A stretch of DNA of 64,000 nt. Origin: Candidatus Zixiibacteriota bacterium (GTDB taxonomy: Bacteria; Zixibacteria; MSB-5A5; UBA10806; 4484-95). A program made the position numbers and the translations under genes. Each line of letters starts with the position of its first letter. The first letter of the stretch is position 1. The notes under the pieces were generated by a model. That model was not told the DNA's origin. It saw only the letters and a list, made by a program, of their open reading frames with translations, and ran no database searches. Below are positions 3,001 through 20,006 of this stretch, piece by piece. Location: assembly GCA_024231855.1 (NCBI GenBank), contig JAAEQD010000159.1, forward strand, positions 1 through 64,000, read 5' to 3'.

Positions 3001-3774
3001 AAACCCGCTGAGCCTGGTATAACTACCGAGGTTCGGAAGCCTACAATGTACGTGTGTGATACACTGGCGCAGGTCGCGCACATTATGCACAGCGCCGAAG
3101 CGTGGCGCCGAATAATCCCCTTGAAAGCTGTATCACCTCCAGCCCTCCTTGAGGTGAACGATGATGAAATAGTCTATGGCCCTACAAAGGAGGGCAAACT
3201 AAAGGGCTTAGCGCCGCAGTTTGCCAATCTCGCCTTGGCGATCCAGCATGAGGCTCTGAGGAAAGAACCGGCTGTTCATGAGATGCTTGGGCAGATCCAG
3301 CGGGATATCGCTGTGTGTGACGCAACGAGCATAGCGCGATTATTTCAAGATTTAAGGGAGCAGGTCGAAGCAGGGTGGCAACTGCCAAAGCAGAGCGATC
3401 CCGCGCTGGTTCCTGAGGAAGTCCTGGAGAAAGGTGCCCTGAAGATTCTCGCCGCTGTCAATTGGTGGAGATGGTTACTGAAGAGGCCGCTTCTACCGAG
3501 GGCCGATGATATCACAACGACACTGGAGTGGACACTAAGTTCTCAGCTTTTGGCTTACTACGACATCCAATCCGTCACTATTGGAGACAATAGAATGAGC
3601 CAAACTAGACCAGAGCAAGAGGACATCAAGGACAGTGAAATTCTAGAAGCTATTCCCTATTCCTTCGACGGCATTGAAATTATCAAAACGATCGGGGTTG
3701 CGCCGAGCCTTGGGATCGACCACCGAAAAAACCTAACGGATTGGATCGTTAAGTCAGATCGGCTAACTCGATAA
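13..3774 (+). CDS. PfkB-kinase-like + HAD phosphatase fusion protein with charged repeat insert
   Basis: Large composite protein of unknown role. Residues about 30-330 resemble a PfkB/ribokinase fold: DVGGRAGRLAWVLQEFGG matches the N-terminal GGxAxNxAxxL signature and is followed by AKAGDVGRIVLE. The C-terminal GAGD catalytic signature is replaced by SGPTVREAFTAGY, so kinase activity is doubtful. Residues about 480-1000 form a HAD hydrolase with motif I FDLDATLID (near 485-492), motif II VYVVTEG and motif IV GDRYDND (954-960), all intact. A long insert between motifs I and II carries charged tandem repeats. The last 200 residues are not recognised. The frame is open to the window edge, so the true start could lie upstream. 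It is followed after 48 bp by the Nudix fusion gene on the same strand, probably one operon. Base composition is GC-richer than the defence genes downstream. Domain calls are from motifs only; the function is not known. Confidence 0.75.
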   Translation: MMEYMTLCADPTLFELDSNTHRHPAPNGVPMGIVTLPDFVVDVAVNEVETSIPGNRGSIDPLDVGGRAGRLAWVLQEFGGLRNGWYNIKYIAKAGDVGRIVLERRFTKRNNYAGFEAISLRHIIPSNQDYDWIHIYGKMKKPVESSHDGLDVKIEDIDKSSFSLTDLFIDSRYIVISSKHADHAISAISLVGEGLDRLSGMLPTQIHGKLPIGILLDLSALGNCDHIPGVIASFAKVKERASAFVIDSTALCAQELDSGKEHFEHVLVRENEIVRLGDSEYPLSASGPTVREAFTAGYTLATACDLGWKLLRRWYDYFPKIRPIDGSPHKSYPQEEKGEPGQLADDGDLLPSLDINGGDPISPADRVRFAALLAEATESTPLCYSDLVKTVTPKDTQLLTPIEKLEVKYATSQQDAPKDQMNDCEKKASMELVLKKRFQDPESEDTLSLHAPPSKLDSFVSSCRLRDARRVVESPKSEIDKAVMFDLDATLIDSSKMIRACWKIGLRTFFNEVGIRAEDDEIKTIIDVYQTFIYKNYERFHLLLRDQPDIPPELQPCDFRQVWNHPYAWAALLLVLNLDSTSPEIDRSQHKQWRDALDKHKQWLDVLDKYNQWREALDKYKKEQETSAGDQDSSSENPNDPWLDVLDKYNQWREALDKYKKEQEVSAGAKDSSSEKPNEQSRDVLDKHNKEQEASAAAKDTSAEKPNEKCDCDICSQLEPMLRENSKDTKDGEKRKNRKKPVNLEDVRRLATRNLREQLTHFRFAIREGRNAFWNVDYPSYPQVRSCVEMLRAMPGCEVYVVTEGHEETQLMKLKCTGLDDLFPAGRVLSTGAASAAKEVRNDLTKLIQQDKHTRDFLLREVNEVNVDEFKRLTETLNAIKDAVDLLHQLLELLYLKANKRFYSAVIDSIRLKPESPAQVLQSLLERGRHAIEYFEKIKDKISEGRPIKFFMIGDRYDNDCEPLLKIFPSADQEVGVGTCRLMSGKRSWEEYPPEKKPAEPGITTEVRKPTMYVCDTLAQVAHIMHSAEAWRRIIPLKAVSPPALLEVNDDEIVYGPTKEGKLKGLAPQFANLALAIQHEALRKEPAVHEMLGQIQRDIAVCDATSIARLFQDLREQVEAGWQLPKQSDPALVPEEVLEKGALKILAAVNWWRWLLKRPLLPRADDITTTLEWTLSSQLLAYYDIQSVTIGDNRMSQTRPEQEDIKDSEILEAIPYSFDGIEIIKTIGVAPSLGIDHRKNLTDWIVKSDRLTR
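1772..2140 (+). repeat. 117-bp intragenic tandem repeat encoding charged coiled-coil-like segments
   Basis: Inside the HAD insert, units encoding DKYNQWREALDKYKKEQE recur with a 117-bp (39-residue) period. For example, gtggctagacgtcc occurs near 1818 and again near 1935. Shorter 11-residue subunits (DKHKQWxDxLD) lie ahead of it and a decayed copy follows. The segment is rich in K, E, D, W and Q and is probably helical. It may be a length-variable linker or oligomerisation segment. Confidence 0.8.
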
Positions 3775-3822: not shown

Positions 3823-6800
3823 ATGAAAGCAGAATCATACGTGACACAAGACGAACTTGTAGACGCTCTTGATAGTGATGGCAAACCGTTGCCCCATCCC
3901 GTTTCCCGGTCGTACGCTCATCGGCACGGGATCTGGCATCGTTCAATCTCAGTCTTCGTGCTCAATCGTTACGGTGAAGCCCTGATCGAACGCAGAAGCA
4001 AAAATAAGGACTTGTTTCCCGGCTTCTATGATATCGTCGGTGGCCACGTGCATCCTGAACAGACGCCTTTAGAGACGGCTTGTCGAGAGGTTTATGAAGA
4101 ACTGAACCTTAAAGTTTCTCGCAAACGGTTCGAACTTCTTGCGCCGGTAGATAGCGTGATCGAGCGCGTCGTACTGCCCGATCAGTCGATTGTCAATCTG
4201 GAACGAAAGACGATTTATCTGCTTCGCCTGACCTTGGATGAGGAATCCGCGGTAGCACGACTTGCGGCGGAGTTGCTACGCCTGACTCCTGAAGAACTTG
4301 AGGAACGTGGCACATCGGGTGAGGTTTCGCAACTTGAGTTGTGGCCCTGGGAGCGCCTGTTCGATGCGTCGCGCCTGAGTCAAAATCATCGCATGGCCAG
4401 TGGAACCTTGTCTGCTCTGAGCGACGATCGGGTTCGGGAACAGGTTGCCGTCTGTTGCTTGTCGCTTCGCAACGACCGCCGAGAGGAATTTGTGGAACAC
4501 TACGCATTCCTCAAAGAAGGAAATGGCGATGATGACGGCTTCGACCAGAGCCTATTCGATCGGTTTCTACCGCGTCCGACATCCCCGGCGCCAATTGAAG
4601 AAGTGAACGCTGTTTTCAAGAATGGACCGGAACAGTTGGCAGGTGCTTACGAGTTGGGACGATTTAGCCAAACCGCATCGGGTGATGACCATTGGGGTCC
4701 AAAGCTCCGAGATCCGGAGACACGGTATGTACGCAGTCTTCTTACGGCTATCGGCTGCGGTAGAAAGGCAGGCGTTCGACAGGAGTTGGACCGAATTTCC
4801 ACCCAAGTCCAGTCATTCGTAAGCGACTTGCTGAATCTCCCGTTGTCAGACGGAAACCGCTTCCGGGATAAATTGGGCAACCTGGCGCATATCGCCGCCG
4901 CGCGAAGGGCAGTGCTTGTCTGGTTAGAGCACGCCGCGCCGGATTTGGCGAAGACTGAGAGTCTCGACCGACCTACTGGGTTAGTGACAGAAGCTTGTTT
5001 ACAGGCCGGTAATGACATCCTGAGACGATTTTTAAGGTCGAATCGTTTGCCGGATTTGGGCCGCTTTCGCGAGCTCGTTTTAGTGGGCCTGCGAGCGTCT
5101 TCCGCAGATTTCAATAATCCGCCGTTTCAGAAGCATTTGAAGGCACCGCCCCCAGACAGCCCACAGATCGAACGCTTCCTCGAGCAAAAAATCCCGCAAG
5201 AGTTTGCGCCGGAGATGGGAGGTGATCAATTTCTCTCGCAATTCTATTCGAAGTTCGTAGAATCCGGCGAGTCAGTCACAATCGCGTACCTTGCCGGTAA
5301 TGCGGCCCAGGCCTCTATCAGCCTCGCAATTGCTCAGGAGATCCTAAGCATCAATGGTAATGCCAAAATACGATTCGTACCCAAGTCAGACTCTCCGGGA
5401 AACGACCTGACATTTGCGGATGCGGAGAGGATACTCGCCGCAGGCGAACACGGGATTTTCTCAGAATTGATCCGTTTCCGCAACGAAGGACGTTTCGCCG
5501 TGGAGCAAGACGGGCCGCTCTGCCATGGACTGGACCCCCGGCGGCTTTCTGCGAGCATCTCGAAGGTTCTTGTCGATGCGCAAGTCATTCTGGCCGAAGG
5601 GCAAGCATATGCTGAGATCTGTGGATGGAAGAAGCCGACATACATTTCATTTCGAGTAAACGGCCGGGTCGCCGAGGCAATCCACGGCATCTCGCGGCAG
5701 CGCGGCGTGTGCGGGTTCGTTGGTTTGACACCCGGTGTCGATCATTTCCAGAACTTCGAGAGTGCGATCTGCCGAAGCATCGTGGACGCGGGCGATAAAC
5801 GCACTTTACGTGTTGCGGCCCAAACGACGGCCGAGTATGTTCGAGCGATTCGGGGAGAAAACCTGGACCTGATCGTGAACCATCTTTTTCAAGGAAACCT
5901 TGTCGAAGCCTGTGAGCACGTCCAAGCTGAAGCCGACCGGCTTGGCAAGAGCTTTGCCCAGATCCTTATTGGGGCGGCATCGGAACCCCCGGACGCCACG
6001 AACGTCGCTCAGCTCTTTCGTAACGTGCGTTTTCCGGTGTTCGCCTGCGGTGGCGGAGGCGGATTCAGCAGCGTGACACTCCGAGCTTTGCGTATGCTAG
6101 GCTTGCCCACGGTCGCGGGCGTCCCCAGTACGGATGACGGAGGTAGTACCGGTGAGCTTCAGCGTTGGCTTGCCAGTGAACGTGGCTTCGTCTTTGGGAT
6201 GGGCGACATGGCGGCAATCATGCAGGACGCTTTGCCCAACCGCGGCAAACAGGCAGTGCTTGCATACCGCTTCGACAGCGAACCCAAATCGCTGGCATTA
6301 GCTACAATTATGAGGATCGTGGCAGAAATCGCGAGTCCTACGTACCCTGATTCTCCAATCGGGTCGGCCGACGATTTCCTGTCGTTTGTCTGTGGTCAGC
6401 TCAATCTTGCCCGCGTTGTTGATGGAAGTTTTCGTGGGGCCGACAGTCTAAGTAAGCTTCCGATTAAAGGTGCGAGCATTCGTAACTTAAACATCATTGC
6501 AGCGTACGAGCTATGCGATTTGTTGGGAGACCGAGGAACAGTTTCCGAGGAATCGCGACTCGCTGCTTTCTATATGCTTCAGGAAGCATTGGGATTGCCA
6601 CCCGATTTACTTGTTGTTCCGGTGACCTATTCTGAATCTGTACTCTACCTCGAATACGAGAATCCGATTCAAAAAGAGCTGGCCGAGGAGTTCGACGTGC
6701 CAGACAAAGCGATCGGGAATAACCAGCGACGTCTATATGGCCAACAATTCATCGACAAGCTACCACAAAGCGGGTCGAGGTCGACCGTCGGCGTGGCCAA

Positions 6801-7644
6801 GTCGCCCAGCAATCTTCACCGTCCGCGTGCCAATCCGGAGTACCTGTCACGCCTGCAAGACGCAGAACTTTTCGTGATGGGCGCCGGATCACTCATCGGT
6901 AGTCAGCTTTCGCAATTAGCGATTCCAGGCGTTGTGGATGTTCTCTTGGAGCGATCAAGCATGCGGCGGATTCTTGTGCTCAATCATGTGAAGATGGACG
7001 AAACTCTTGGCATGTCTCTTCGAGATCAAATCCGACTCATCGAAACGGTTGCCTCCGAGACCGCCTCCAGACATCTGTTTGATAGGTGGGCGGAAACCGA
7101 TGGACGGCTGCGAATTTCCGATCTGTTCACGGACATCGTCGTGCCGCGGACGATAGCTCGGGAACTCGAAGCTGAAATGAAGGCTGAAAAGGTCTCAAAA
7201 GAAGTGACTGAGAATGGTGATCCAAATTATGTATTTTTTCCCACGCCAGGGACCAATCAGACGATACGTGTGTTCTGTAATAGGTACGTGAAGTTCCTCC
7301 TCGATCATCCGAACATTGGCGAGGAATACGGCATTACAAAACGTGAGATAGAGGTGCTTTCCTATCTGGATCAGCCCTCAACTCTCTATAACCGGCGCAG
7401 CGAGGGAGGACGCTATCGCGGCGCCTTATTCGCTACAACGGGCGACATCGATTTTCTCGTGGATCGGGGAATCCAACGTCGCAGCATCCACGAAGTGGAC
7501 TCTATCGGAGAGAATTGGAAGATCGTGAAGGCCGAAGGAGCCCCACGCCTTGAGTTCTTTCCGGGGCTCGTACCGGAGGCATTGGTTGGGATATTCCGCA
7601 TCGCTTTAGAGCGAGCGAGTTCGACTTCGACACCTACTCGATGA
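3823..7644 (+). CDS. Nudix + DUF89-like + CofD/YvcK-like triple fusion protein
   Basis: Three phospho-metabolite enzyme folds in one 1273-residue chain. Residues about 20-190 are a Nudix hydrolase of the isopentenyl-diphosphate-isomerase-like type. The Nudix box begins GGHVHPEQTPLETACREVYEE at about residue 73 and is intact. Residues about 290-640 resemble DUF89/ARMT1-type damage-control phosphatases: the ND.T..DA element and AEGQAYAE (family: KGxxNxE) are present. The family's metal-binding DNxGE is changed to GNAAQ, so this domain may not be catalytic. Residues about 735-1110 match the CofD/YvcK family: GGGGGFSS, STDDGGSTGELQ, MGAGSLIGS and RRILVLNHV correspond to GGGTGLS, TDDGGSSGRLR, GPGSLYTS and the YVCN strand. 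About 160 C-terminal residues are unassigned. CofD transfers phospholactate to Fo, and YvcK binds UDP-sugars. The substrate here is unknown. It lies 48 bp behind the PfkB/HAD fusion and a palindrome follows 28 bp after the stop. Confidence 0.8.
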   Translation: MKAESYVTQDELVDALDSDGKPLPHPVSRSYAHRHGIWHRSISVFVLNRYGEALIERRSKNKDLFPGFYDIVGGHVHPEQTPLETACREVYEELNLKVSRKRFELLAPVDSVIERVVLPDQSIVNLERKTIYLLRLTLDEESAVARLAAELLRLTPEELEERGTSGEVSQLELWPWERLFDASRLSQNHRMASGTLSALSDDRVREQVAVCCLSLRNDRREEFVEHYAFLKEGNGDDDGFDQSLFDRFLPRPTSPAPIEEVNAVFKNGPEQLAGAYELGRFSQTASGDDHWGPKLRDPETRYVRSLLTAIGCGRKAGVRQELDRISTQVQSFVSDLLNLPLSDGNRFRDKLGNLAHIAAARRAVLVWLEHAAPDLAKTESLDRPTGLVTEACLQAGNDILRRFLRSNRLPDLGRFRELVLVGLRASSADFNNPPFQKHLKAPPPDSPQIERFLEQKIPQEFAPEMGGDQFLSQFYSKFVESGESVTIAYLAGNAAQASISLAIAQEILSINGNAKIRFVPKSDSPGNDLTFADAERILAAGEHGIFSELIRFRNEGRFAVEQDGPLCHGLDPRRLSASISKVLVDAQVILAEGQAYAEICGWKKPTYISFRVNGRVAEAIHGISRQRGVCGFVGLTPGVDHFQNFESAICRSIVDAGDKRTLRVAAQTTAEYVRAIRGENLDLIVNHLFQGNLVEACEHVQAEADRLGKSFAQILIGAASEPPDATNVAQLFRNVRFPVFACGGGGGFSSVTLRALRMLGLPTVAGVPSTDDGGSTGELQRWLASERGFVFGMGDMAAIMQDALPNRGKQAVLAYRFDSEPKSLALATIMRIVAEIASPTYPDSPIGSADDFLSFVCGQLNLARVVDGSFRGADSLSKLPIKGASIRNLNIIAAYELCDLLGDRGTVSEESRLAAFYMLQEALGLPPDLLVVPVTYSESVLYLEYENPIQKELAEEFDVPDKAIGNNQRRLYGQQFIDKLPQSGSRSTVGVAKSPSNLHRPRANPEYLSRLQDAELFVMGAGSLIGSQLSQLAIPGVVDVLLERSSMRRILVLNHVKMDETLGMSLRDQIRLIETVASETASRHLFDRWAETDGRLRISDLFTDIVVPRTIARELEAEMKAEKVSKEVTENGDPNYVFFPTPGTNQTIRVFCNRYVKFLLDHPNIGEEYGITKREIEVLSYLDQPSTLYNRRSEGGRYRGALFATTGDIDFLVDRGIQRRSIHEVDSIGENWKIVKAEGAPRLEFFPGLVPEALVGIFRIALERASSTSTPTR

Positions 7645-7791: not shown

Positions 7792-7951
7792 TAACGATTT
7801 ATCACGAATTTATATATTTTATAACTATTTTTCTAGTTTTGTAACCATTTTTCTACATCAGCCGACAATAATGTGGACTGCAGTTTTATAATTATTTTTC
7901 TTGACTTATAGTGAAATATAATAATAATTCTTGCGTTGTAATCATTTTTCC
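7792..7951 (+). promoter_or_regulatory. Array of TAAYNATTTTTC repeats ahead of fic
   Basis: Five related 13-mers with consensus TAAYNATTTTTCY lie in the AT-rich leader: taacgatttatca (7792), taactatttttct (7822), taaccatttttct (7842), taattatttttct (7889) and taatcatttttcc (7939). The last sits directly before the ribosome-binding site of fic. Spacing is 30, 20, 47 and 50 bp. They look like repeated binding sites for a regulator, possibly the Fic protein's own C-terminal region, which is inference. The rest of the 7645-7961 gap holds palindrome copy 1 and no gene. Confidence 0.5.
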
Positions 7952-7961
7952 AGAGGAAGCC

Positions 7962-9482
7962 ATGGTTGATAACAATCAAAATGAATCGATAGACAGACTT
8001 GCAGGATATGCGGCACTTATCGAGCGGTACGATCTTGATGTATTCCCGCACTGGCATAGGTCACGAGTGACAACAAGCGGAGTCCACCGGATAGATTCAA
8101 GCGGAGGTGTGGTCAAGGAAGTATATCCTCCTAAGTACTGGCCAGGAGATACGCTGGGTGATCATCTTGAATTTGCGCTCAAATATGACGGTACGAACCT
8201 CGCAATACTAGCTTGTCTGTTTCAGGAAGTAGCAGAAGAGGATATTCTCGATTATATCCGATCAAAGCCAACTGGCAAGTATGCCCGGCGGCTATGGTTT
8301 CTGTACGAATTCCTGACCGGTAAAACGCTCCCCATACATGACCTAAAGAGAGGTAACTACATCGACCTGCTTGAAATGAATAAATACTATACGGTTACTC
8401 CGATCCGCAGGGTCCAACGTCAGCGGATTAACAATAATTTGCTAGGTGATCAAAGATTCTGCCCGACGATACGCCGCACCGATATCCTTCGTAAATTCGA
8501 AACGGACGACCTGCCTAATCGATGCCGCCAAGTTGTTTCAGCTTATTCCCCGGAATTGCTGAAGCGAGCACTCAGCTATCTTTACACCAAGGAGACTAAA
8601 TCATCATTTGAGATCGAAAACATTAAACCCAGTTCGACACGGACTGAACGCTTCGTGGCGCTACTTCAAATGGCTGAGCGAGAAGACTTCTGCGAGAAAA
8701 AACGATTAATCGAGCTTCAGAATCGCATAGTTGATCCACGGTTTCGCGATTCCGATTATCGCTTTAACCAGAATTATGTCGGGGAGACCATCGCCTTACA
8801 GAAAGAAAAGATACACTTAGCATGTCCAAAGCCCGAAGACCTGGCCGATTTGATGGAAGGGTTGATAGCTGCCCATAAACGTATGGATGCAAGCGACGTA
8901 TCGGCCGTGATTCACGCTACTGCCATCTCCTATGGTTTTGTTTTTTTACACCCGTTTGAGGATGGTAACGGCCGAATCCACCGCTTCCTGATTCACAACA
9001 TTTTTTCCAGAAGAGGTTTTACTCCCAAAGACGTTATGTTTCCTATATCAGCATCCATGCTGAAGAACTCGATTGATTATGATGACTCTCTGGAAGCGTT
9101 CTCCCGGCGGCTTATGCCTCTTGTGGAATACTCTCTTGATGAAGAAGGTCGCATGACGGTTCATAATGATACCGCCAAATGGTACCAGTATATTGATATG
9201 ACGCCTCAAGCGGAAGCGCTTTTCGGATTCATTGTTCATACTATCGATACCGAGCTCTCAAGTGAATTGGCATTCCTTGCTAATTATAATGAAACCAAGA
9301 AGGCTATTCAAGAGATAGCCGACATACCCGATAGGAAAATCGACCTCTTCATTCGATTCTGTTTGCAAAACAATGGGAGATTATCCATACGGAAACGCAA
9401 TAGTCATTTCGATTTTCTTTCCGATGAGGAAATTAGTCGAATGGAACAGGTGGTGTCATCTGCCTACATTGAAAAACCATAG
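7962..9482 (+). CDS. Fic family AMP-transferase (class II, N-terminal inhibitory helix)
   Basis: Fic-domain protein, predicted to transfer AMP from ATP to a hydroxyl side chain of a target protein. The catalytic motif HPFEDGNGRIHR is complete (residues about 330-341), with the essential His and both Gly-Asn-Gly-Arg ends. SSFEIEN at residues 214-220 matches the [ST]xxxE[GN] inhibitory motif upstream of the Fic core, so the enzyme is probably self-inhibited. No separate antitoxin gene is present. The N-terminal 180 residues are not assigned. The C-terminal 80 residues look like a small helical, perhaps winged-helix, domain. I chose the ATG at 7962 because AGAGGAAG lies just before it; the track start at 7911 is 17 codons earlier and lacks such a site. 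The gene stands alone between palindromes 1 and 2. Confidence 0.88.
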   Translation: MVDNNQNESIDRLAGYAALIERYDLDVFPHWHRSRVTTSGVHRIDSSGGVVKEVYPPKYWPGDTLGDHLEFALKYDGTNLAILACLFQEVAEEDILDYIRSKPTGKYARRLWFLYEFLTGKTLPIHDLKRGNYIDLLEMNKYYTVTPIRRVQRQRINNNLLGDQRFCPTIRRTDILRKFETDDLPNRCRQVVSAYSPELLKRALSYLYTKETKSSFEIENIKPSSTRTERFVALLQMAEREDFCEKKRLIELQNRIVDPRFRDSDYRFNQNYVGETIALQKEKIHLACPKPEDLADLMEGLIAAHKRMDASDVSAVIHATAISYGFVFLHPFEDGNGRIHRFLIHNIFSRRGFTPKDVMFPISASMLKNSIDYDDSLEAFSRRLMPLVEYSLDEEGRMTVHNDTAKWYQYIDMTPQAEALFGFIVHTIDTELSSELAFLANYNETKKAIQEIADIPDRKIDLFIRFCLQNNGRLSIRKRNSHFDFLSDEEISRMEQVVSSAYIEKP

Positions 9483-9886: not shown

Positions 9887-12800
9887 ATGATGAAATCTGA
9901 AGATCTCAAGAAAAATATTATTGTAACCGGTCCTATTTTTTCAGAACCAGTCCAGATTATAATGGCAACTTCGTTAGGTGATTCAATCAAACTTGTAGGA
10001 AAAGGGATTCACACCGGTCAAGTTCACGAACCTATCTTAACGAATGACCAAATTGCATTACTTAAAGCTTCCCCTGAACGGGAGCCTTTTGATGGTAATC
10101 CTATACGATTCAAACTTGGTATAGAAGCTTTAAGATTATCCCTTGCTTTCGAATATGATCCTTACTTTTCCCTCTCAATTGCCAGAGTAGATCCGCTTCC
10201 GCACCAGCTAGAAGCTGTTTATGACTATTTTATAAAACTTCCTCGTATCAGATTTCTTCTTGCTGATGATCCTGGTGCTGGGAAAACGATAATGGCTGGA
10301 CTTCTTTTGAAAGAGCTGAAAATCCGCGGATTAGCAAAACGCACTTTAATCGTTTCTCCCGCAAATCTGTGCTTTCAATGGCAACGCGAAATGAAAGATA
10401 AATTTCATGAAACATTTGATGTAATGCGAGGAGAAGTATTACGGGCCGCCTACGGAACAAATCCTTGGCAAGATCGCAATCAGGTGATTACTTCCGTATC
10501 CTGGGTATCGCGCGTTGAAGATGCCAACGAGAGTCTATTACGAAGCCATTGGGATCTTATTATTGTAGATGAAGCGCATAAAATGAGCGCCTATAGCTCT
10601 GAAAAAAAGACACTTGCCTATCGCCTGGGCGAACACCTTTCGACTATGACGGACCACTATTTGATGATGACTGCTACGCCACATAAAGGAGATCCTAAAA
10701 ATTTCTGCTTATTCCTAGAATTATTGGACAAAGATGTTTATGGTGATGTGAGAAGCCTTGAGGACGCCATGGCGCGTAATAGTGCGCCATTTTATCTCAG
10801 GCGTGTTAAAGAGGCGTTGGTTACCTTCCCCTCTCCGGATACAGGTGAAGTTAAGAAACTTTTCACAAAACGTGAGGTTAAGACAGGGGATTTTAAAATT
10901 TCGGATCAAGAATATGACTTTTATGACACATTAACTCGATATGTTGAAGACCAATCAATAAAAGCTTCTTCGGACGATTCTGCGCGTGGACGTGCTCTGG
11001 GTTTCACTATGGCCATGTTACAGCGACGGTTTGCCTCCAGCACCTATGCTGCAAGACGAAGTCTTGAACGTATGAGGGATAAACGCCAGAGAATTCTCGA
11101 TGACCCCGAAGGTTATAGGCAAGAGCAGATTGAGCGTCGCATGCCTGATGATTTTGACGAATTGACCGATGCCGATCAACAGAAAATTGTTGATCAACTC
11201 GAACAAGTTGTTATATCTATTAATCCCCCTCATCTTCGAGATGAAATTATTCAATTAGACAAACTGGTTACTTTGGCAAAAGCCCTGGAGAAAGCAGAAG
11301 TTGAAGCCAAGCTTACAAAATTAAAAGACGTAATCACCACCGAGGGCATATTTAAAGATCCTAAAATGAAACTGCTTGTATTCACCGAGCACAAGGACAC
11401 ACTTGATTATTTGGTAAAAAAACTCGAAGAATGGGATCTTACGGTTACCCAAATACACGGCGGAATGAAGATCGGTGATCGAAACCAACCGGGAACGCGG
11501 CTTTACGCAGAAAGAGCTTTTAGAGATGAAGCCCAGGTTTTAGTAGCCACTGAAGCGGCTGGTGAAGGCATAAACCTTCAATTCTGCTGGTTTATGATTA
11601 ATTATGATATTCCATGGAATCCTGTCAGGCTTGAGCAGCGTATGGGACGTATTCATCGTTATGGTCAGGAGCACGACTGTTTAATTTACAATTTTGTAGC
11701 TTTAAATACTCGAGAAGGTCGTGTTTTAAATAAGCTATTATTTAGATTGAGTGAGATTAGAGATGAACTAGGAACCGATCAGGTTTTCGATGTAGTTGGT
11801 GAGATATTTCCTGCTAATATTTTAGAGCGTATGTTCAGAGAGATGTATGCTAAACGCAGAGACGAAAAATCAATAAATGATAGAATTGTTAAGGATGTTG
11901 ATGCTAATCGTTTTAGATCGATAACGGAATCCACATTGGAGGGGCTGGCTAAGAAACAACTAAATCTCTCGGCGATAATTGGCAAATCAGTTGAAGCCAA
12001 AGAGAGGCGATTAGTTCCCGAAGTTATTGAAGAATTTTTCACTACTGCTTCTGTTGTTTCGGGTATTAAACCAAAAGAGACTCGAAAAGACTCACATATC
12101 TATCGAATTGGCCGCATTCCTCGCAACTTATGGTCTATTGGTGAAAGATTAGAACCTCGTTTTGGAAAATTAGGTCGGGAGTACAAGCAAATCGTATTTA
12201 ATAAATCGATTCTTGCTAAAGATCCAACCTGTGAGTGGGTAACACCTGGGCACCCGTTATTTGAGACTGTCCGTGAGGATGTTGCTGAACGTGTAAGAGC
12301 CGATTTACAGCGAGGAACTGTTTTTTATGATGTTAACCAATCTCAATCTTATCGACTTGATGTATTCTCTGCATCCATAAAAGATGGCCGTGGTCATCCC
12401 CTTAATCGGAGGCTTTTTGTGGTTCAAATTAATGAAGATGGATCATTAGATATCAAACAGCCGACAATTTTCATCGATTTAAATGCCACCAATATGAAAA
12501 CAGAACCGCCTGCTATTGATGGTTTGCCGGGCCGAGAATTGGCGGAAAGATTCCTTGTTGAACAAGCGTTAAATCCGTTCTTGGTTGAAGTATCAAAGGA
12601 GCGTGCCCGAGAGACTGATATGATTGCCCGCCATATTGAAATCAGTCTGAATGAATTGATTAAACGGCAAAACTTAAAGATGGCAGAGCTTTTAGAATTG
12701 CAGCAAAAAGGTGACACATCACAGCCGCTAGCTGCGAATATTAAGCAGGTTGAAGACCGCATAGATGAGCTTAATGGCAGACTTGAAAGACGTCGCAATG

Positions 12801-13297
12801 AGCTAAAAATGGAAAGCCAGTGCCTGATTGGAGATATTCAATTTATCGGTAGAGCCTGGGTATTACCGCATCCTGAACGTTCCGCCCCCGATGTATCTCC
12901 GATGGTTAAGAATGATGAAATTGAAAAGATAGCGGTTGATGCTGTAATAGCCTATGAAAAGAAACAGGGGCGTATTTGTGAGAGCGTTGAAGATCAAAAC
13001 CGGGGCTTTGATCTAATATCACGCAAGCCGCACCCGGAAGATCCAAAGACGGCTATTGAAGTTAGGTTTATCGAAGTTAAGGGGCGTTCTGAGATAGGAG
13101 AAATTGCGCTAACGCCAAATGAATACAAAACTGCTGAAAGACTAAGACGTGATTTTTGGCTATATGTAGTATTTAATTGTTCTAATAATCCAGCGGTTAA
13201 TGTTGTGAATGATCCTGTCCGGCTAGGGTGGAAACCTCTGGTAAAAGTTGAACACTATCATGTTAATTCAAGCAAAATTATCAAGGCCGCAGAATGA
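9887..13297 (+). CDS. SNF2-type helicase with DUF3883 C-terminus (DrmD-like defence helicase)
   Basis: Superfamily 2 ATPase of 1136 residues, predicted to move along or remodel DNA in a phage-defence complex. Seen motifs: Walker A DDPGAGKTI (near 127), DEAH box VDEAHKMS (near 227), motif III MTATPHKGD, and the helicase C-terminal motifs ATEAAGEGINLQF and RMGRIHRYGQ (near 584). A charged coiled-coil region follows near 900-970. The last 100 residues contain EVRFIEVKGRS and ALTPNEYKTAERL, typical of DUF3883. This is a nuclease-related fold often found at the end of defence helicases, including DrmD of class 1 DISARM. Its stop overlaps the next start (ATGA), so the two genes are translationally coupled. 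No clear Shine-Dalgarno sequence precedes the tandem ATGs. It heads a five-gene cassette. Confidence 0.88.
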   Translation: MMKSEDLKKNIIVTGPIFSEPVQIIMATSLGDSIKLVGKGIHTGQVHEPILTNDQIALLKASPEREPFDGNPIRFKLGIEALRLSLAFEYDPYFSLSIARVDPLPHQLEAVYDYFIKLPRIRFLLADDPGAGKTIMAGLLLKELKIRGLAKRTLIVSPANLCFQWQREMKDKFHETFDVMRGEVLRAAYGTNPWQDRNQVITSVSWVSRVEDANESLLRSHWDLIIVDEAHKMSAYSSEKKTLAYRLGEHLSTMTDHYLMMTATPHKGDPKNFCLFLELLDKDVYGDVRSLEDAMARNSAPFYLRRVKEALVTFPSPDTGEVKKLFTKREVKTGDFKISDQEYDFYDTLTRYVEDQSIKASSDDSARGRALGFTMAMLQRRFASSTYAARRSLERMRDKRQRILDDPEGYRQEQIERRMPDDFDELTDADQQKIVDQLEQVVISINPPHLRDEIIQLDKLVTLAKALEKAEVEAKLTKLKDVITTEGIFKDPKMKLLVFTEHKDTLDYLVKKLEEWDLTVTQIHGGMKIGDRNQPGTRLYAERAFRDEAQVLVATEAAGEGINLQFCWFMINYDIPWNPVRLEQRMGRIHRYGQEHDCLIYNFVALNTREGRVLNKLLFRLSEIRDELGTDQVFDVVGEIFPANILERMFREMYAKRRDEKSINDRIVKDVDANRFRSITESTLEGLAKKQLNLSAIIGKSVEAKERRLVPEVIEEFFTTASVVSGIKPKETRKDSHIYRIGRIPRNLWSIGERLEPRFGKLGREYKQIVFNKSILAKDPTCEWVTPGHPLFETVREDVAERVRADLQRGTVFYDVNQSQSYRLDVFSASIKDGRGHPLNRRLFVVQINEDGSLDIKQPTIFIDLNATNMKTEPPAIDGLPGRELAERFLVEQALNPFLVEVSKERARETDMIARHIEISLNELIKRQNLKMAELLELQQKGDTSQPLAANIKQVEDRIDELNGRLERRRNELKMESQCLIGDIQFIGRAWVLPHPERSAPDVSPMVKNDEIEKIAVDAVIAYEKKQGRICESVEDQNRGFDLISRKPHPEDPKTAIEVRFIEVKGRSEIGEIALTPNEYKTAERLRRDFWLYVVFNCSNNPAVNVVNDPVRLGWKPLVKVEHYHVNSSKIIKAAE

Positions 13298-13626
13298 GCA
13301 AATGGTCTGATTGGAAGCGCTTTCCCGATCCCAGGAAGGGCGATTATATTTGTGTTCCATATGGACCTGGAGTATATGAACTACGGCATATTGGCAATGG
13401 CCAAAGAATACTTTTTGGAGAAGGAAGTTGTGTTGCATATAGAATGTCTTCTTTGTTGTCGAAACCATTAGGCTGTGGCACTAGAAATAATTATAAAAAG
13501 AGAGAATACGTTCTAAAAAATATCAATGACGTCGAATTTCGCACCTGTGCGTGCAAGAATAGAAATTCAGCAAAAGAGTTGCAACGTGAAATTAAAACAA
13601 AATGGAAATATGTTTTTAGGACTTAG
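13294..13626 (+). CDS. Small GIY-YIG-like protein
   Basis: A 110-residue protein starting inside the helicase stop codon (ATGA overlap). GPGVYELRHI (24-33) and RILFGEG (38-44) stand where GIY and YIG occur in GIY-YIG nucleases. Arg50 follows in AYRM, and a Glu follows near the C-terminus in KELQREIK. The catalytic pattern is therefore recognisable, although GIY reads GVY and YIG reads LFG. Cys pairs (CGT, CAC) are also present. In this operon it may supply a DNA-cutting or structure-binding activity to the helicase/methylase complex. The family call is tentative, since it rests on a few residues in a short protein; an inactive DNA-binding relative is the alternative. Confidence 0.55.
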   Translation: MSKWSDWKRFPDPRKGDYICVPYGPGVYELRHIGNGQRILFGEGSCVAYRMSSLLSKPLGCGTRNNYKKREYVLKNINDVEFRTCACKNRNSAKELQREIKTKWKYVFRT

Positions 13627-13632
13627 TTTAAT

Positions 13633-16600
13633 ATGAAAACCCATAGATATTGCAAACGCCTAATAGAAGTTGATTTACCCATTAAACGTATTTCGGAACA
13701 TGCTCGACGAGAGAAATCCATAAGGCATGGGCATATATCCACGCTTCATCTTTGGTGGGCAAGGCGACCTCTTGCCGCTTGTCGTGCTGTTATTTGTGCT
13801 TCTTTATGGCCTGACCCTGCCGATGATTTATGTCCTATAGTATTTAGGAAAGCCGCAAAGAATGAGATGATGGTTTGGGGAAGAGATAGTTTAAAGTTAA
13901 TGAGCGACGAAAGTTATAAATTCTTTAGATCCAAATTAGACAATCCATGTTGTTTCGATGATCCTATCAACCTAAGAAAAGCTTTGTTGCATTTTATAGC
14001 AGATTATTCAAATTGGGATCATACAAACAACTCTAAATTCAATTCAACATCCAACCGTTTGACGAAAGCAGCTTATCAAACTGAAGGCACTATTAAGTAT
14101 TCCCGTCCACTAGTAGTAGATCCGTTTGCGGGTGGTGGGGCGATCCCTCTTGAAAGCTTGCGTGTTGGAGCTGATGCTTATGCATCTGACTTAAACCCTG
14201 TAGCCGTTTTGATAAATAAGGTTTTACTCGAGTACATACCACAATATGGGACCAAACTTTCAACGGCCGTAAAAGAATGGGGATTATGGATTAACAAACA
14301 AGCATCAAAAAGATTATCAGTATATTACCCCCCGACAGGTAAAGATTTAACACCACTTGCATATATATGGGCTAGAACAATAATATCAGAATCACCAAGC
14401 GAAAAAAATATTCCAATTGAAATACCGCTCATTTCATCGATGTGGTTATCAAAAAAACCTCATCGAAAACGTGCGCTACGTTGGGTCCTGAATAAAGGCG
14501 GAAGAGTTGCAACGAAAATACTTTATAAAAAATATGCAAATGGCATTAATATGCAAATTCAACAACCTCTTCTTGAAGTATTTGAGCCCAAAAATATATC
14601 GGATGTGCCAAATGGCAACGTCGCACGCGGATCTGCTACATGTCCGGTTACAGGATATACAGTTCCAGTTAAGAATGTGAGAATTCAATTGGAAAAAAGA
14701 AAGGGTGGGGCATCAGACGCTAGAATGATTTGCACGGTAAGTGTTTCCAAAATCAGAAAAGGTAGAACATATTGTATTCCAACCAATGACGATCTGGAAA
14801 CGTCAGAAATGGCTAATGTTCATTTCAATAACATTGGAGTGAAAAGTGAAGAGAATTCCAATTTTCCAAATGAACCTACACCACCTAGAAATAGTCATAG
14901 AGCAGTAAGCAGCTTTCCAATTTATGGAATGAATAAGTTCATTGATCTTTTTACGCCTCGCCAGGCTCTAGTTCTTAAAACGTTTACCGAATTAATTAAG
15001 GAAGCCGGAAATAATATTGAAGCTCAATCTAATAAAGAATTTGCTTTTGCGACACAGAGTTGTCTCGCGCTCTTGATTGGAAAGATAGCCGACTATTGTT
15101 CTAGTCTGACCCCTTGGGCGTCTCCAGCTACACAAGAAACGGTTAGAAATACTTTCGGCCGTCAGGCATTAGCAATGGTGTGGGATTTCGCCGAAGCAAA
15201 TATTTTTGCAAAAAGTTCTGGGGGATGGTGCCATGCACTTGAATATATTTCACGTGCAATAGAGCACACAGCGAAAGGTATTAATTCTCAAGGTACGGCA
15301 AATATAGAAGATGCGTGTCAATTAAGTTTACCAGATAACATTGCAGCTGCCTTAATAACAGATCCTCCTTATTACGATTCGATTCCGTATGCGGAATTAT
15401 CGGATTATTTTTATGTTTGGCTGAAACGTGCAATACCGGACTGTCATGCGTCTTTGTTCAAGGATGTACTCACCCCCAAGAAAGAGCAAATTATTGTCTG
15501 GCACCCAAATGCAGTTGATGAAAAAGACAGGTTTCAAGACTTAATGAAAAGAGCATTGTCAAATGGCCGCAGGATTTTGAATAATAATGGTATAGGCATT
15601 GTTGTTTTTGCCCATAAATCTACATCAGGTTGGGAAAGTCAATTAAGGGCCTTGATTGAATCAGATTGGATTATTACCGCATCATGGCCAATAGATACTG
15701 AGAGATCTGGCCGTATCAATGCAAAAAACACGGCTTCGCTGGCATCATCTGTCCATTTAATTTGCCGACCCCGCGAGAATACTCGCGGCACCAAACTTGC
15801 AGCTGACATAGGTGATTGGCGTGATCTACTAACAGAACTTCCTGAGAGAATTCATGAATGGATGCCTCGCCTTGCGGGGGAAGGGGTAGTAGGCGCTGAT
15901 GCTATCTTTGCTTGCCTAGGTCCGGCATTGGAAATCTATTCCCGTTATTCTTCGGTGGAGAGAGCCAGCGGGGAAGAAGTGAGCTTGAGCGAATATCTTG
16001 AAGAAGTCTGGGCGACTGTTTCGCGTGAAGCCTTGAACATGATATTTGAAGGTGCTGATTCCTCCGGTTTTGAAGAGGATGCCCGACTAACTGCCATGTG
16101 GCTTTGGACAATCTCAACAGGAGTAAACGGACAAACCAATGAAGAGGATAAACCTATAAGTAGTTTAGGATATACACTAGAATTTGATGCTGCACGAAAA
16201 ATCGCTCAGGGTTTAGGCGTACACCTAGAAAGATTGATGAATCTCGTCGAAATCCAAGGAGATAAAGCAAGGTTAATACCTGTATCTGAAAGATCAAAAT
16301 ACCTATTCGGAAAAGAAGGAACGGAATCGTCGCAACGAAAACGCAAAAAGAAAGACCCTCAGATAGGTTTGGGATTCCTGGCGGAACTAGAGGAATCTGA
16401 AGAGCAGGCCAAGATTAAAGGATCATTCTCGGTCAACCTGGGTAAGACGGTGCTTGACCAACTTCATCAATGTATGCTTTTATTTGCTGCTGGTAGAAGT
16501 GAGGCATTGAAGCGGCTGATTGTCGAAGAGGGCGTCGGTAGAGATCAAAGATTTTGGAAATTAGCACAATCATTATCAGCACTTTACCCAAAAAATGTAG

Positions 16601-16656
16601 ATGAAAAGCGTTGGGTGGATGGCGTATTAGCAAAAAAGAAGAGTTTTGGATTTTAG
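13633..16656 (+). CDS. DUF1156 DNA methyltransferase (amino-MTase)
   Basis: Predicted SAM-dependent N6-adenine or N4-cytosine DNA methyltransferase that marks host DNA. The N-terminus RLIEVDLPIKRISEHARREK and the following HLWWARRPLAACRAV are the DUF1156 signature. SAM motif I is DPFAGGGAIP (163-172) and the catalytic motif IV is DPPYYDS (577-583). Motif I precedes IV, and the 410 residues between probably hold target recognition. A lysine-rich stretch near 900 (RKRKKKD) separates a C-terminal tail. It lies 6 bp behind the GIY-YIG-like gene and 37 bp before the DUF499 ATPase. DUF1156 and DUF499 proteins are known to pair in defence islands. The length of 1007 residues is normal for the family. 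Confidence 0.9.
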   Translation: MKTHRYCKRLIEVDLPIKRISEHARREKSIRHGHISTLHLWWARRPLAACRAVICASLWPDPADDLCPIVFRKAAKNEMMVWGRDSLKLMSDESYKFFRSKLDNPCCFDDPINLRKALLHFIADYSNWDHTNNSKFNSTSNRLTKAAYQTEGTIKYSRPLVVDPFAGGGAIPLESLRVGADAYASDLNPVAVLINKVLLEYIPQYGTKLSTAVKEWGLWINKQASKRLSVYYPPTGKDLTPLAYIWARTIISESPSEKNIPIEIPLISSMWLSKKPHRKRALRWVLNKGGRVATKILYKKYANGINMQIQQPLLEVFEPKNISDVPNGNVARGSATCPVTGYTVPVKNVRIQLEKRKGGASDARMICTVSVSKIRKGRTYCIPTNDDLETSEMANVHFNNIGVKSEENSNFPNEPTPPRNSHRAVSSFPIYGMNKFIDLFTPRQALVLKTFTELIKEAGNNIEAQSNKEFAFATQSCLALLIGKIADYCSSLTPWASPATQETVRNTFGRQALAMVWDFAEANIFAKSSGGWCHALEYISRAIEHTAKGINSQGTANIEDACQLSLPDNIAAALITDPPYYDSIPYAELSDYFYVWLKRAIPDCHASLFKDVLTPKKEQIIVWHPNAVDEKDRFQDLMKRALSNGRRILNNNGIGIVVFAHKSTSGWESQLRALIESDWIITASWPIDTERSGRINAKNTASLASSVHLICRPRENTRGTKLAADIGDWRDLLTELPERIHEWMPRLAGEGVVGADAIFACLGPALEIYSRYSSVERASGEEVSLSEYLEEVWATVSREALNMIFEGADSSGFEEDARLTAMWLWTISTGVNGQTNEEDKPISSLGYTLEFDAARKIAQGLGVHLERLMNLVEIQGDKARLIPVSERSKYLFGKEGTESSQRKRKKKDPQIGLGFLAELEESEEQAKIKGSFSVNLGKTVLDQLHQCMLLFAAGRSEALKRLIVEEGVGRDQRFWKLAQSLSALYPKNVDEKRWVDGVLAKKKSFGF

Positions 16657-16693
16657 CGTTTATTTATGATAGTATGATTTGGGGAGAAAACAT

Positions 16694-19630
16694 ATGGTAC
16701 TGAAACCCTGGTATAAGGTCGTTACTCCAAGAGAAGACCTCCGTGAAGGAAAACCATTAGATGCATCTGAGTTTGCCGTTCACCTAGACCAGGTTCGCAA
16801 TGGTCGGGCAAACAAGGACTATCAAGATCCTGAGCGGTTTTTTGAAAGAACATATCTAACCCAAAATTTAAAGAGCTTATCTGCTGAAGTTATTAGAAGA
16901 TTATCAGGTGAAAAAACCGAGACTTCTGCCGTATTCAACATGGCCACTCAGTTCGGCGGGGGTAAGACTCATGCCTTAACCCTTCTATATCATTTAGCGC
17001 AAAATGGTAAAAAAGCTTCTGCCTGGCGAGGAGTAAAATCGGTACAGCAGCGGGCCAAGATTAAGGAAATACCTAAAGCCAATACAGCAACATTTGTAGG
17101 TACAGAATTTGATTCAATAACCGGCCGCGGCGGAGATGATGGTACACCGCTTAGAAAAACACCGTGGGGCGAGATAGCATTTCAGCTTGGTGGCAAAGAA
17201 GCATTTAAAGTCATTGAGCAACATGATAAAGAAATGACAGCGCCTTCCGGTGAGGTTATTCGAAAATTTTTACCAAAGAACAAACCCAGTTTAATTCTAA
17301 TCGATGAGCTTATGAATTACATAAGCCGGACGAGAAAAATGGGTATGGCAGCACAGACGTATAATTTCCTCCAAAACCTGTCAGAAGAATCCCGCGCCCA
17401 GGATAATGTAGTATTAGTTGTATCTGTACCCGCTTCCGAGATGGAGATGAATTCGGAACAGCAATCTGAGTATGACAGAATTAAGAAACTTTTGGATAGG
17501 TTAGGCAAAGCAGTTATAATGTCCGCCGAACAAGAAACTTCTGAAATCATTCGCCGACGTTTATTTGAATGGGGTGGTTTACCGGATGATGCTAGAAAAA
17601 TAATAAGTGAATACAATAACTGGTTTATTGAGTACCGGCAATCTTTGCCAAACTGGTTCCCCATCGATAATGCCAAAGATTATATAATGGCAACCTACCC
17701 GTTTCATCCGACAGCTATTTCTGTATTTGAGCGTAAGTGGGCTGCGTTACCGCGGTTTCAGCGTACTAGAGGTGTACTCCGATTGTTGGCGCTATGGGTT
17801 TCCAGGGCTTGGGAAGAAGGTTATAAAGGAAATCACAAAGATACTCTTATTGGCTTAGGAACTGCACCCCTTGATGACCCGCTATTTCGAGCCGCTGCTT
17901 TTGAACAACTTGGAGAAAGTCGACTGGAGGGAGCTGTAACAACTGATATTTGCGGCAAGAAAGATTCAAATGCAATCCGACTCGATAAAGAAGCAATTGA
18001 TGCGATTAAGAAATCCAGATTACATAGGAAGGTAGCGACAACTATATTTTTTGAGTCAAATGGAGGTCAATCTCAAGGATATACTACACTGCCAGAAATA
18101 CGCTTGTCAGTAGCAGAACCGGATTTAGATATTGCAAATGTAGAGACTGTTCTGGATGCTTTGGTTCCACCTGACGGTGCTTGTTATTTTATGGATTCGG
18201 CCAAAAACAGGTATTGGTTCAGCGTTAAGCCTAATCTTAACAAATTATTATCAGATCGTAGAGCTAGTGTTCAAGCACCTCAAATAGAAGAATTAATTAA
18301 GACCGAAATTCAGACTGTTTTTGTTACAAAAAAGGATATAAATAGGATTTTCATTCCCGAAAAAAGCAATCAAATTGCTGATCGCCCAGCTTTGACGTTA
18401 GTAATATTAGCGCCTGAAATATCGATGAAGGATTCAGTAGCCACCACGAAATTAGTGGAAACGTTTACTAGAGAGCATGGCACTTCGTCTAGAACATTTA
18501 AGAACTCACTAATTTGGTGTATACCTGAAAATCCGGATATATTATATGATGCCGCTAGGAAAATGCTCGCGTGGGAAGCAATTGAAGACGAGAAAGATGA
18601 TCTGAAATTAGACGACAGCCAGAAACGGCAACTTACCGAGAATCTTAAGAAAGCTAAACGCGATATCAAGGAAGCCGTTTGGAGAACTTACAATAATCTG
18701 ATGATATTAAGTAAGGGTAATTCAATTCGGCATTTACCCCTTGGCCTCGTCCACTCAAGTGCTGCCGAATCTTTAGTGGAATTCATAATCGATTCATTAA
18801 AGAAAGAAGATGAGGTTACTGACTATATCCAACCTCGTAAATTAATAACAAACTGGCCGCCTGCATTTAAAGAATGGGGTACAAAACAAGTTAGGGATGC
18901 GGTCTATGCTTCTCCGCAGTTTTCTAGATTGCTAGATCCTGATTCAATTAGGGAAACAATTGCGAGAGGTGTAAGCGGTGGTATGATGGCATATGTGGCT
19001 AAATCATCAGATGGGCGATATGAGCCATTTGTTTTTGATGAAGCTATATCTGCTTCAGAAATCGAAATCTCTGATGATGTTTTTATAATTTCTGCGGAAG
19101 AAGCGAAAAAACATATTGAACCACCTAAACTATCATCAGTTATAATTTCGCCGCAGAATGTAAATATTCAACCTGGACATAAACAAACGTTTACATTAAA
19201 AGGCATAGACCAAAACGGAATTGATATAACAATGAAGAAAGTAAACTGGTCAGCATCTGGTGGTGAGATTGATGAAAATGGTTTGTTTTCATGTAGCGAA
19301 GAAGGAAGTTATATAGTAAAGGCAATAGTGGAAGGCGTTGAGGGAAATACAAATGCAATAGTTACCAGACCGGGTGCAGCAACACCATTGCCTAAGCCAA
19401 CGGAACTACCTAAAGTAATCAAGTCAGTAAGTTGGAAAGGAGAAGTTCCTTCGCAAAAATGGATGAATTTTTATACCAAAGTATTGTCAAAACACGCAGG
19501 GAAAAACAAATTATCTATCGAAATCGCAGTAAACATATTATCAGAAAGAGGATTTCCTGGGCAGGAAATAAATGAAATCAAGACAGCATTAAGAGAATTG
19601 GGACTTTTAGAAGATATTAATATGGAATAA
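16694..19630 (+). CDS. DUF499 AAA-type ATPase with C-terminal bacterial Ig-like domain
   Basis: P-loop ATPase of the DUF499 family, the usual partner of DUF1156 methylases in anti-phage loci. The N-terminus LKPWYKVVTPREDLREG is family-typical. Walker A is QFGGGKTH (near 86) and Walker B is SLILIDELMNYI (near 199). Residues about 810-893 form a Big_2-like immunoglobulin domain (VIISPQNVNIQPGHKQTF, then VNWSASGGEIDENGLFSC), which is odd for a cytoplasmic ATPase. A short helical tail follows. I chose the ATG at 16694 because GGGGAG stands 7 bp ahead; the track start is a TTG five codons earlier that precedes the Shine-Dalgarno sequence. The protein probably couples ATP hydrolysis to DNA sensing or restriction; the exact role is not established. 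Confidence 0.9.
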   Translation: MVLKPWYKVVTPREDLREGKPLDASEFAVHLDQVRNGRANKDYQDPERFFERTYLTQNLKSLSAEVIRRLSGEKTETSAVFNMATQFGGGKTHALTLLYHLAQNGKKASAWRGVKSVQQRAKIKEIPKANTATFVGTEFDSITGRGGDDGTPLRKTPWGEIAFQLGGKEAFKVIEQHDKEMTAPSGEVIRKFLPKNKPSLILIDELMNYISRTRKMGMAAQTYNFLQNLSEESRAQDNVVLVVSVPASEMEMNSEQQSEYDRIKKLLDRLGKAVIMSAEQETSEIIRRRLFEWGGLPDDARKIISEYNNWFIEYRQSLPNWFPIDNAKDYIMATYPFHPTAISVFERKWAALPRFQRTRGVLRLLALWVSRAWEEGYKGNHKDTLIGLGTAPLDDPLFRAAAFEQLGESRLEGAVTTDICGKKDSNAIRLDKEAIDAIKKSRLHRKVATTIFFESNGGQSQGYTTLPEIRLSVAEPDLDIANVETVLDALVPPDGACYFMDSAKNRYWFSVKPNLNKLLSDRRASVQAPQIEELIKTEIQTVFVTKKDINRIFIPEKSNQIADRPALTLVILAPEISMKDSVATTKLVETFTREHGTSSRTFKNSLIWCIPENPDILYDAARKMLAWEAIEDEKDDLKLDDSQKRQLTENLKKAKRDIKEAVWRTYNNLMILSKGNSIRHLPLGLVHSSAAESLVEFIIDSLKKEDEVTDYIQPRKLITNWPPAFKEWGTKQVRDAVYASPQFSRLLDPDSIRETIARGVSGGMMAYVAKSSDGRYEPFVFDEAISASEIEISDDVFIISAEEAKKHIEPPKLSSVIISPQNVNIQPGHKQTFTLKGIDQNGIDITMKKVNWSASGGEIDENGLFSCSEEGSYIVKAIVEGVEGNTNAIVTRPGAATPLPKPTELPKVIKSVSWKGEVPSQKWMNFYTKVLSKHAGKNKLSIEIAVNILSERGFPGQEINEIKTALRELGLLEDINME

Positions 19631-19661
19631 CTTAAAGTGCAATTGATCTTCTTGATTTTTT

Positions 19662-20006
19662 ATGACTAAAAAACAACACATAAAAGCTGGGATTATAACA
19701 GGAATAGTAGTTAATTATGGCCTTAAATGGTTAGTGAGGAATGACCTTTCAGTAGGTTTAATATATTCAATAATTCTTGGAATCATTGGTGAAATACTTC
19801 CAGATATACTTGAACCACCTACTTCTAGATGGCATAGAAAGCTTTGGCATAGCAAAAAAATGATTATGTATATGGCTTTATTAGTTCTTGTTCTGTTAAT
19901 TATTCCGCTGCTAAAAGATTCGATGAAAGCGGGAATAGTTATAGTATTGATTTCATATCTGATTCACTTAATCTTGGATAGCCGAACTCCTGCTGGATTA
20001 CCTTAA
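19662..20006 (+). CDS. YdjM/DUF457-like small membrane protein
   Basis: A 114-residue protein with about three hydrophobic segments. Conserved His/Asp positions match the YdjM/DUF457 family of predicted metal-dependent inner-membrane hydrolases: EILPDILEPPTSRWHRKLWHS in the middle and HLILDSRTPAGLP at the end. It follows the DUF499 gene by 31 bp on the same strand and is the last gene before palindrome copy 3, so it belongs to the cassette by position. A membrane-located effector or accessory role in defence is possible but unproven. It is shorter than typical YdjM proteins. Confidence 0.6.
   Translation: MTKKQHIKAGIITGIVVNYGLKWLVRNDLSVGLIYSIILGIIGEILPDILEPPTSRWHRKLWHSKKMIMYMALLVLVLLIIPLLKDSMKAGIVIVLISYLIHLILDSRTPAGLP

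Follow-up and report, generated by a model that had tools for sequence, protein, structure and literature searches.

The helicase-methylase-ATPase system Hma was proposed by Payne et al. in 2021 (PMC8565338). In the main text of a 2026 report with a count of 2446 taxa, it corresponds to Type-1 of three BREX-Related (BR) systems centered on a DUF499 ATPase, and embedded accessory effectors or backup nucleases are already reported there for BREX and BR systems (PMC12839542). The gene group itself had already been described in 2013, as an operon of restriction-modification components that combines HEPN-DUF499 with a DUF3883-fused SNF2 helicase; DUF3883 was named there a novel restriction endonuclease domain (PMC3710099). 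Here we describe an hmaA-hmaB-hmaC locus in a stretch of 64,000 nucleotides from a Candidatus Zixiibacteriota bacterium (contig JAAEQD010000159.1), hereafter the window. We consider it likely that the trio is a complete Hma system (Type-1 of the DUF499-centered BR systems) of a widespread clade whose HmaC lacks a HEPN domain, with a gene of the GIY-YIG superfamily in the hmaA/hmaB junction, which we call slot 1.

Profile scans of the locus with hmmscan and PADLOC covered eight neighboring genes. All three core proteins matched the PADLOC Hma models at E ≤ 1e-117 (HmaA 9.1e-195, HmaB 6.6e-123, HmaC 6.8e-130) in a single co-directional locus. The hmaA gene (9887..13297, + strand, 1136 aa) encodes an SNF2 helicase with a Walker A motif (DDPGAGKT at residue 127), DEAH at 228 and QRMGRIHR at 584, followed at the C-terminus by a NOV_C/DUF3883 domain of the PD-(D/E)XK type (PF13020, E 5.6e-20, residues 1012-1105). 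The residues D1042-E1063-x-K1065 of this domain were unchanged across a five-row alignment; the domain is predicted to be a nuclease and HmaA the primary effector. The hmaB product (13633..16656, +, 1007 aa) is a DUF1156 protein (PF06634, E 6.8e-23, residues 15-78) with DPFAGGG at 163 and DPPYYD at 577, and because of the DPPY motif we assign it as an amino-methyltransferase and not as the m5C enzyme named in the original proposal (PMC8565338). The hmaC gene (16679..19630, +, 983 aa) encodes a DUF499 AAA+ ATPase (PF04465, E 1.4e-29) with the Walker motifs GGGKT at 93 and LILIDE at 205, and without an N-terminal HEPN domain. Its true start is probably the ATG at 16694 and not the TTG at 16679, since relatives begin at a homologous M-x-x-KPWYK. 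The helicase, methyltransferase and ATPase motifs of the trio are intact. An initial annotation, made from the letters of the window, had proposed an anti-phage function for this locus, which is well supported, as are its gene names. The domains that it had named (SNF2 with DUF3883, DUF1156, DUF499 and YdjM) were borne out by hmmscan, which gave SNF2, Helicase_C and NOV_C/DUF3883 for the helicase.

The same annotation placed five plus-strand open reading frames (ORFs) in the locus, all of which are present, and took them for one tight unit. This holds for the first four. The small GIY-YIG gene (13294..13626, +, 110 aa) has a 4-bp overlap with the stop of hmaA, a gap of 6 bp leads on to hmaB, and approximately 37 bp separate hmaB from hmaC; the GC content at third codon positions (GC3) is 0.315 for the small gene and 0.316-0.333 for hmaA-C. 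The fifth gene, encoding a short YdjM-like membrane protein (19662..20006, +, 114 aa), stands apart with a GC3 of 0.243 and has no homologue beside the other Hma loci. Upstream of hmaA, GC3 is 0.458 for a Fic gene and 0.56 for the genes preceding it. A promoter and terminator scan gave no excess over shuffled sequences.

Approximately 85 Hma loci were surveyed, for which a scan of the genome collection gave the best 80 of 232 loci; these best 80 came from many bacterial phyla and from methanogenic or anaerobic methanotrophic (ANME) archaea. Wherever all three genes lay on one piece, the order hmaA-hmaB-hmaC and the strand were kept, save on a few cut or rearranged contigs. Since the orthologues share their order in many phyla, the locus is not a chance arrangement. 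Plasmid loci of Planktothrix, Picosynechococcus and Geminocystis (L018-L023) carry full-length orthologues in the same order, with approximately 62-65% (HmaA), 49-56% (HmaB) and 52-59% (HmaC) identity, and their slots are occupied not by a GIY-YIG gene but by genes of the VapC/PIN, OLD-type ATPase, nucleotidyltransferase, Uma2 and HsdR-N types. Thermus-type Hma (L024, L120-L126) has the same trio at about 30% identity, but in several of these loci, unlike in the window, a Swt1-HEPN domain is fused to DUF499. In a HmaB tree, the window fell within a 78-row group with 100% support, far from the separate Thermus-type branch, and its nearest neighbor was L025 from the Acidobacteriota (support 99), in which slot 1 is empty; the tree was quick, with one very long canonical row and loci picked by similarity to the query, and its finer groupings are therefore not relied on. 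On the Picosynechococcus PCC 7117 plasmid, we also observed an AlkB-family dioxygenase gene directly 3' of hmaC (L019:15500-16141); hmaB is split there into two annotated ORFs.

The C-terminus of HmaC was modeled from a 32-row alignment, with a predicted local distance difference test score (pLDDT) of 85. The model starts with a helical, winged-helix-like part and contains a bacterial Ig-like (BIG2-type) domain, encoded at approximately 19140-19400 of the window. The best Foldseek matches of this domain were LigA/LigB, Big_2 domains, and the Ig domains of the phi29 capsid and of T5 and lambda tail-tube proteins; a role as sensor or as mimic is conceivable. The HmaC C-terminus also has a conserved W...QKWMNFY...ALRELGL block, which formed two helices in the 250-aa model with strands not assigned and did not confirm an RRM/ferredoxin-like fold.

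The hmaB/hmaC junction constitutes slot 2, and a slot was counted as filled when it held at least 150 bp. By this measure, 58 of 75 loci had a filled slot 1 and 62 of 79 a filled slot 2 (77-78%), and both slots were empty in only 2 of 71; these figures are locus counts and not independent events, a few entries being near-duplicates or repeats of one plasmid. The cargo amounted to 207 ORFs in 127 clusters, of which 101 were singletons, and some of the smallest ORFs are expected to be spurious. Pfam families among it, with toxin and abortive-infection families represented, were OLD/AbiEii-type ATPases, Schlafen AlbA_2, HD, DarT with Macro, Fic and MqsA, together with PIN and UPF0175 (VapBC), HepT and nucleotidyltransferases (HepT/MNT), TIR, GmrSD, Uma2 and a YhcG-type nuclease; PADLOC matches included AriA, AbiLi, and Gabija- and Septu-like ATPases. 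In two closely related archaeal loci of Methanotrichaceae, L074 and L078, slot 2 is the same and slot 1 has a 54-aa piece in common, but a 560-aa slot-1 gene is present in L074 only. Since these loci differ by that whole gene, cargo exchange appears to have been recent in places.

Of the eight plasmid loci read in the Thermus branch, 2 have slot 2 filled and the others have it empty, against the 62 of 79 filled given above (Fisher's test, p = 0.004, a small sample with no phylogenetic correction). From this small, uncontrolled comparison we infer that HEPN-less loci may need external cargo for want of a built-in HEPN domain. We tentatively suggest that the two junctions of HEPN-less Hma loci are conserved docking sites, making this clade a two-slot platform for the exchange of entire abortive-infection or toxin modules, which would replace the HEPN of the other branch and guard the core from inhibitors. 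The window would then present a new type of cargo, a catalytically altered GIY-YIG protein that might act as a sensor bound to DNA instead of as a nuclease. New here are the GIY-YIG cargo and the sharpness of the two-slot pattern; embedded backup nucleases were known before. What calls for explanation is why the fixed framework of HEPN-less Hma loci retains two slots for exchangeable genes and whether each cargo guards the core; this is directly testable, since close relatives that have or lack a given cargo are available.

A protein of approximately 200 aa was observed solely in slot 2, with 21 members (alignment A10; L025:6971-7600, L032:12632-13264, L071:13006-13632 and about 18 more). It has the motif ...DVMAF...AVMELEN...YSLWKVLC..., lies outside the tallied Pfam and PADLOC families, and had no significant match in the PDB (best E 0.68). 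We regard this family as a candidate unannotated accessory component of the Hma clade, possibly PD-(D/E)XK-like.

The 110-aa protein of the window had no Pfam match of its own by hmmscan. Its relative L115, which is 39% identical, matched the GIY-YIG family PF01541 at 26.6 bits (cut-off 22.6), and the family profile aligned to the GIY-YIG domain of UvrC (1yd6, E 0.0024) over positions 21-104, the greater part of the domain. The GIY motif, as GVY28, and the conserved Arg50 are present in the window copy, and the YIG tyrosine is replaced by Phe41 (L115 has YCG). The column of the UvrC catalytic Glu, a metal ligand of GIY-YIG enzymes, is occupied by Gln97 in the window copy; G010 and L115 have Glu there, and G1083 has Asp. 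Nuclease activity of the window copy is doubtful because of Gln97 and Phe41, and the fold assignment is good. The protein is thus a genuine GIY-YIG superfamily member, although a divergent one, and is probably not an active nuclease; the initial annotation, which had seen in it a GIY-YIG-like protein and possible nuclease, holds for the superfamily and is in doubt for the activity. A fold predicted from the single sequence was unusable (pLDDT 44).

Three other genomes contain homologues at 39-50% identity (G010, G1083 and, with two copies, G363), and more distant ones occur in G007 and G033; with so few among about 1,500 sampled genomes, the family is rare in that sample. None was found in plasmids, phages or viral contigs, and none in 20 of the other Hma-bearing genomes or in samples of two further phyla, although the negatives for these genomes and phyla are both weak. 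The gene was absent at all of the other Hma loci examined (approximately 85). In G1083 (L116:7208-13234, - strand), the relative lies between a ResIII-family helicase gene, which it overlaps by 4 bp, and an N6_N4_Mtase gene in a type III-like locus, that is, at the same helicase/methylase position as in the window within an unrelated restriction system.

The small gene could be read in two ways other than as slot cargo. An active nuclease that works as a genuine fourth subunit of the Hma locus would fit the packing against hmaA and hmaB at the same GC3, the recurrence of a relative at the helicase/methylase position of the type III-like locus, and the Glu or Asp that relatives retain at the catalytic column; given Gln97 and Phe41 in the window copy and the lack of the gene at the sister locus L025 and about 85 others, this is nevertheless unlikely. 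It is possible, although we do not favor it, that the gene is a neutral passenger or a decaying mobile gene, such as a homing-endonuclease-like remnant, with no part in defense. The substituted catalytic residues, the broken frames of the G363 relatives and the patchy, unlinked distribution point in this direction, but the ORF is intact and exactly packed between both neighbors with matching codon composition, its position recurs in a restriction locus of another kind, and the slot is often filled with defense genes in relatives.

A further reading, that of the initial annotation, took all five genes for a DISARM-related but separate system with the GIY-YIG protein as its nuclease. The helicase is indeed distantly related to DrmD (416 bits in PADLOC) and has DUF3883, and the small gene is both of the GIY-YIG type and tightly packed. 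The HmaA model, however, scored far above DrmD, at 648 bits, and neither of the NCBIfam DrmD cut-offs was reached (364 bits against 610, and 211 against 950). Moreover, the core is the published Hma trio, HmaA has a nuclease domain of its own while the GIY catalytic Glu is Gln97, and both the small gene and the YdjM-like gene are missing from all other Hma loci examined. We therefore find a DISARM-like five-gene system very improbable. As the annotation had noted, drmA, drmB and drmC are lacking among the eight neighboring genes, and the genome's single MZB/DUF1998 match is on another contig; membership in DISARM was rejected on these absences and the DrmD scores. The annotation had named a match of all five genes to one described system as one outcome that would refute it, and such a match was found for three of the five, the small GIY-YIG gene and the YdjM-like gene lying outside it. 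Neither of the Type-2 BR markers, DUF3780 and HKD, turned up in the scan of eight genes, and the single PglZ match (Type-3) of the genome is on another contig. A tie of the ARMADA/YprA helicase paper to the locus was also rejected, as that paper contains neither DUF1156, DUF499 nor DrmD.

For the Hma trio, we propose that HmaB, going by what is known of its family, would methylate an amino base at a specific motif and thereby label DNA as self. The AAA+ ATPase HmaC, through putative DNA-binding and Ig-like sensor domains, would scan or assemble on unmarked DNA, and HmaA would then be recruited, translocate and cut via its C-terminal PD-(D/E)XK domain. The same mark-sense-cut reading is found in the main text of PMC12839542, and nothing in the present analysis contradicts it. 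The small gene would be an exchangeable cargo of the clade's hmaA/hmaB slot, and cargo genes may, on the model of PrrC in EcoprrI, provide a further layer of defense once the core is blocked. Without the catalytic glutamate, the GIY-YIG copy of the window is more likely to bind to DNA or to the core proteins than to cleave DNA.

Several points weigh against a complete Hma system with a GIY-YIG cargo. The N-terminal TUDOR domain of the helicase and the C-terminal RRM of the ATPase, which define the published type, are not clearly shown. In the main text of PMC12839542, GIY-YIG, DarT, TIR and Fic go unmentioned, and its catalogue of embedded effectors thus offers no direct precedent for the role of the GIY-YIG gene. 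The relatives in G010, G363 (twice), G007 and G033 do not adjoin hma genes; since they lie away from hma, the link of the GIY-YIG family to Hma consists of one locus and the type III-like parallel.

The YdjM-like protein, which the initial annotation had counted as part of the cassette, matched PF04307 at 35 bits (cut-off 29) over 113 of the 176 profile positions. We take its gene for a bystander because it is shorter than the family, differs in composition and was never found beside other Hma loci; it was rejected as an Hma component on the present evidence. Directly 5' of hmaA, the window encodes a Fic-domain protein (7911-9482, +) that matched the PADLOC candidate PDC-S24 (E 2.8e-182). Fic is also hma cargo elsewhere, between hmaA and hmaB on Thermus pVV8 and in slot 1 of L034; in the window, its linkage to hma is unproven because of a 404-bp gap and the different GC3. 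Further upstream, a 1273-aa fusion (3823-7644, +) has an unusual combination of NUDIX, ARMT1-like phosphatase and CofD/YvcK-like domains. Co-directional with this fusion and directly 5' of it lies the gene of a 1253-aa protein (13-3774, +) with a split HAD-type hydrolase domain broken by 'WLDVLDKYNQWREALDKYKKEQE' repeats.

Assigning the trio to Hma avoids re-announcing a known system as new. The cassette itself is of modest interest, and the two-slot pattern and the GIY-YIG parallel are of higher interest, with the GIY-YIG family and the 200-aa slot-2 protein as concrete candidates. Compared to the PADLOC Hma, the window differs by the GIY-YIG gene between hmaA and hmaB and by an HmaC that has an Ig-like domain and no HEPN. 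The likeness to DISARM lies in the SNF2-family helicase, and that to EcoprrI in an accessory gene inside a restriction locus. There, prrC is activated upon inhibition of the restriction enzyme (PMC12707154); PrrC is an anticodon nuclease whose guard function has been demonstrated, whereas such a role is putative for the GIY-YIG protein of the window. In PMC12839542, it is Type-2 ATPases that have FnIII-like domains; the Ig-like domain of this clade, by contrast, is found in a Type-1-like locus, and it is with Type-1 BR that the window has in common a DUF499 ATPase, a DUF1156 methyltransferase and an SNF2 helicase with a C-terminal PD-(D/E)XK domain.

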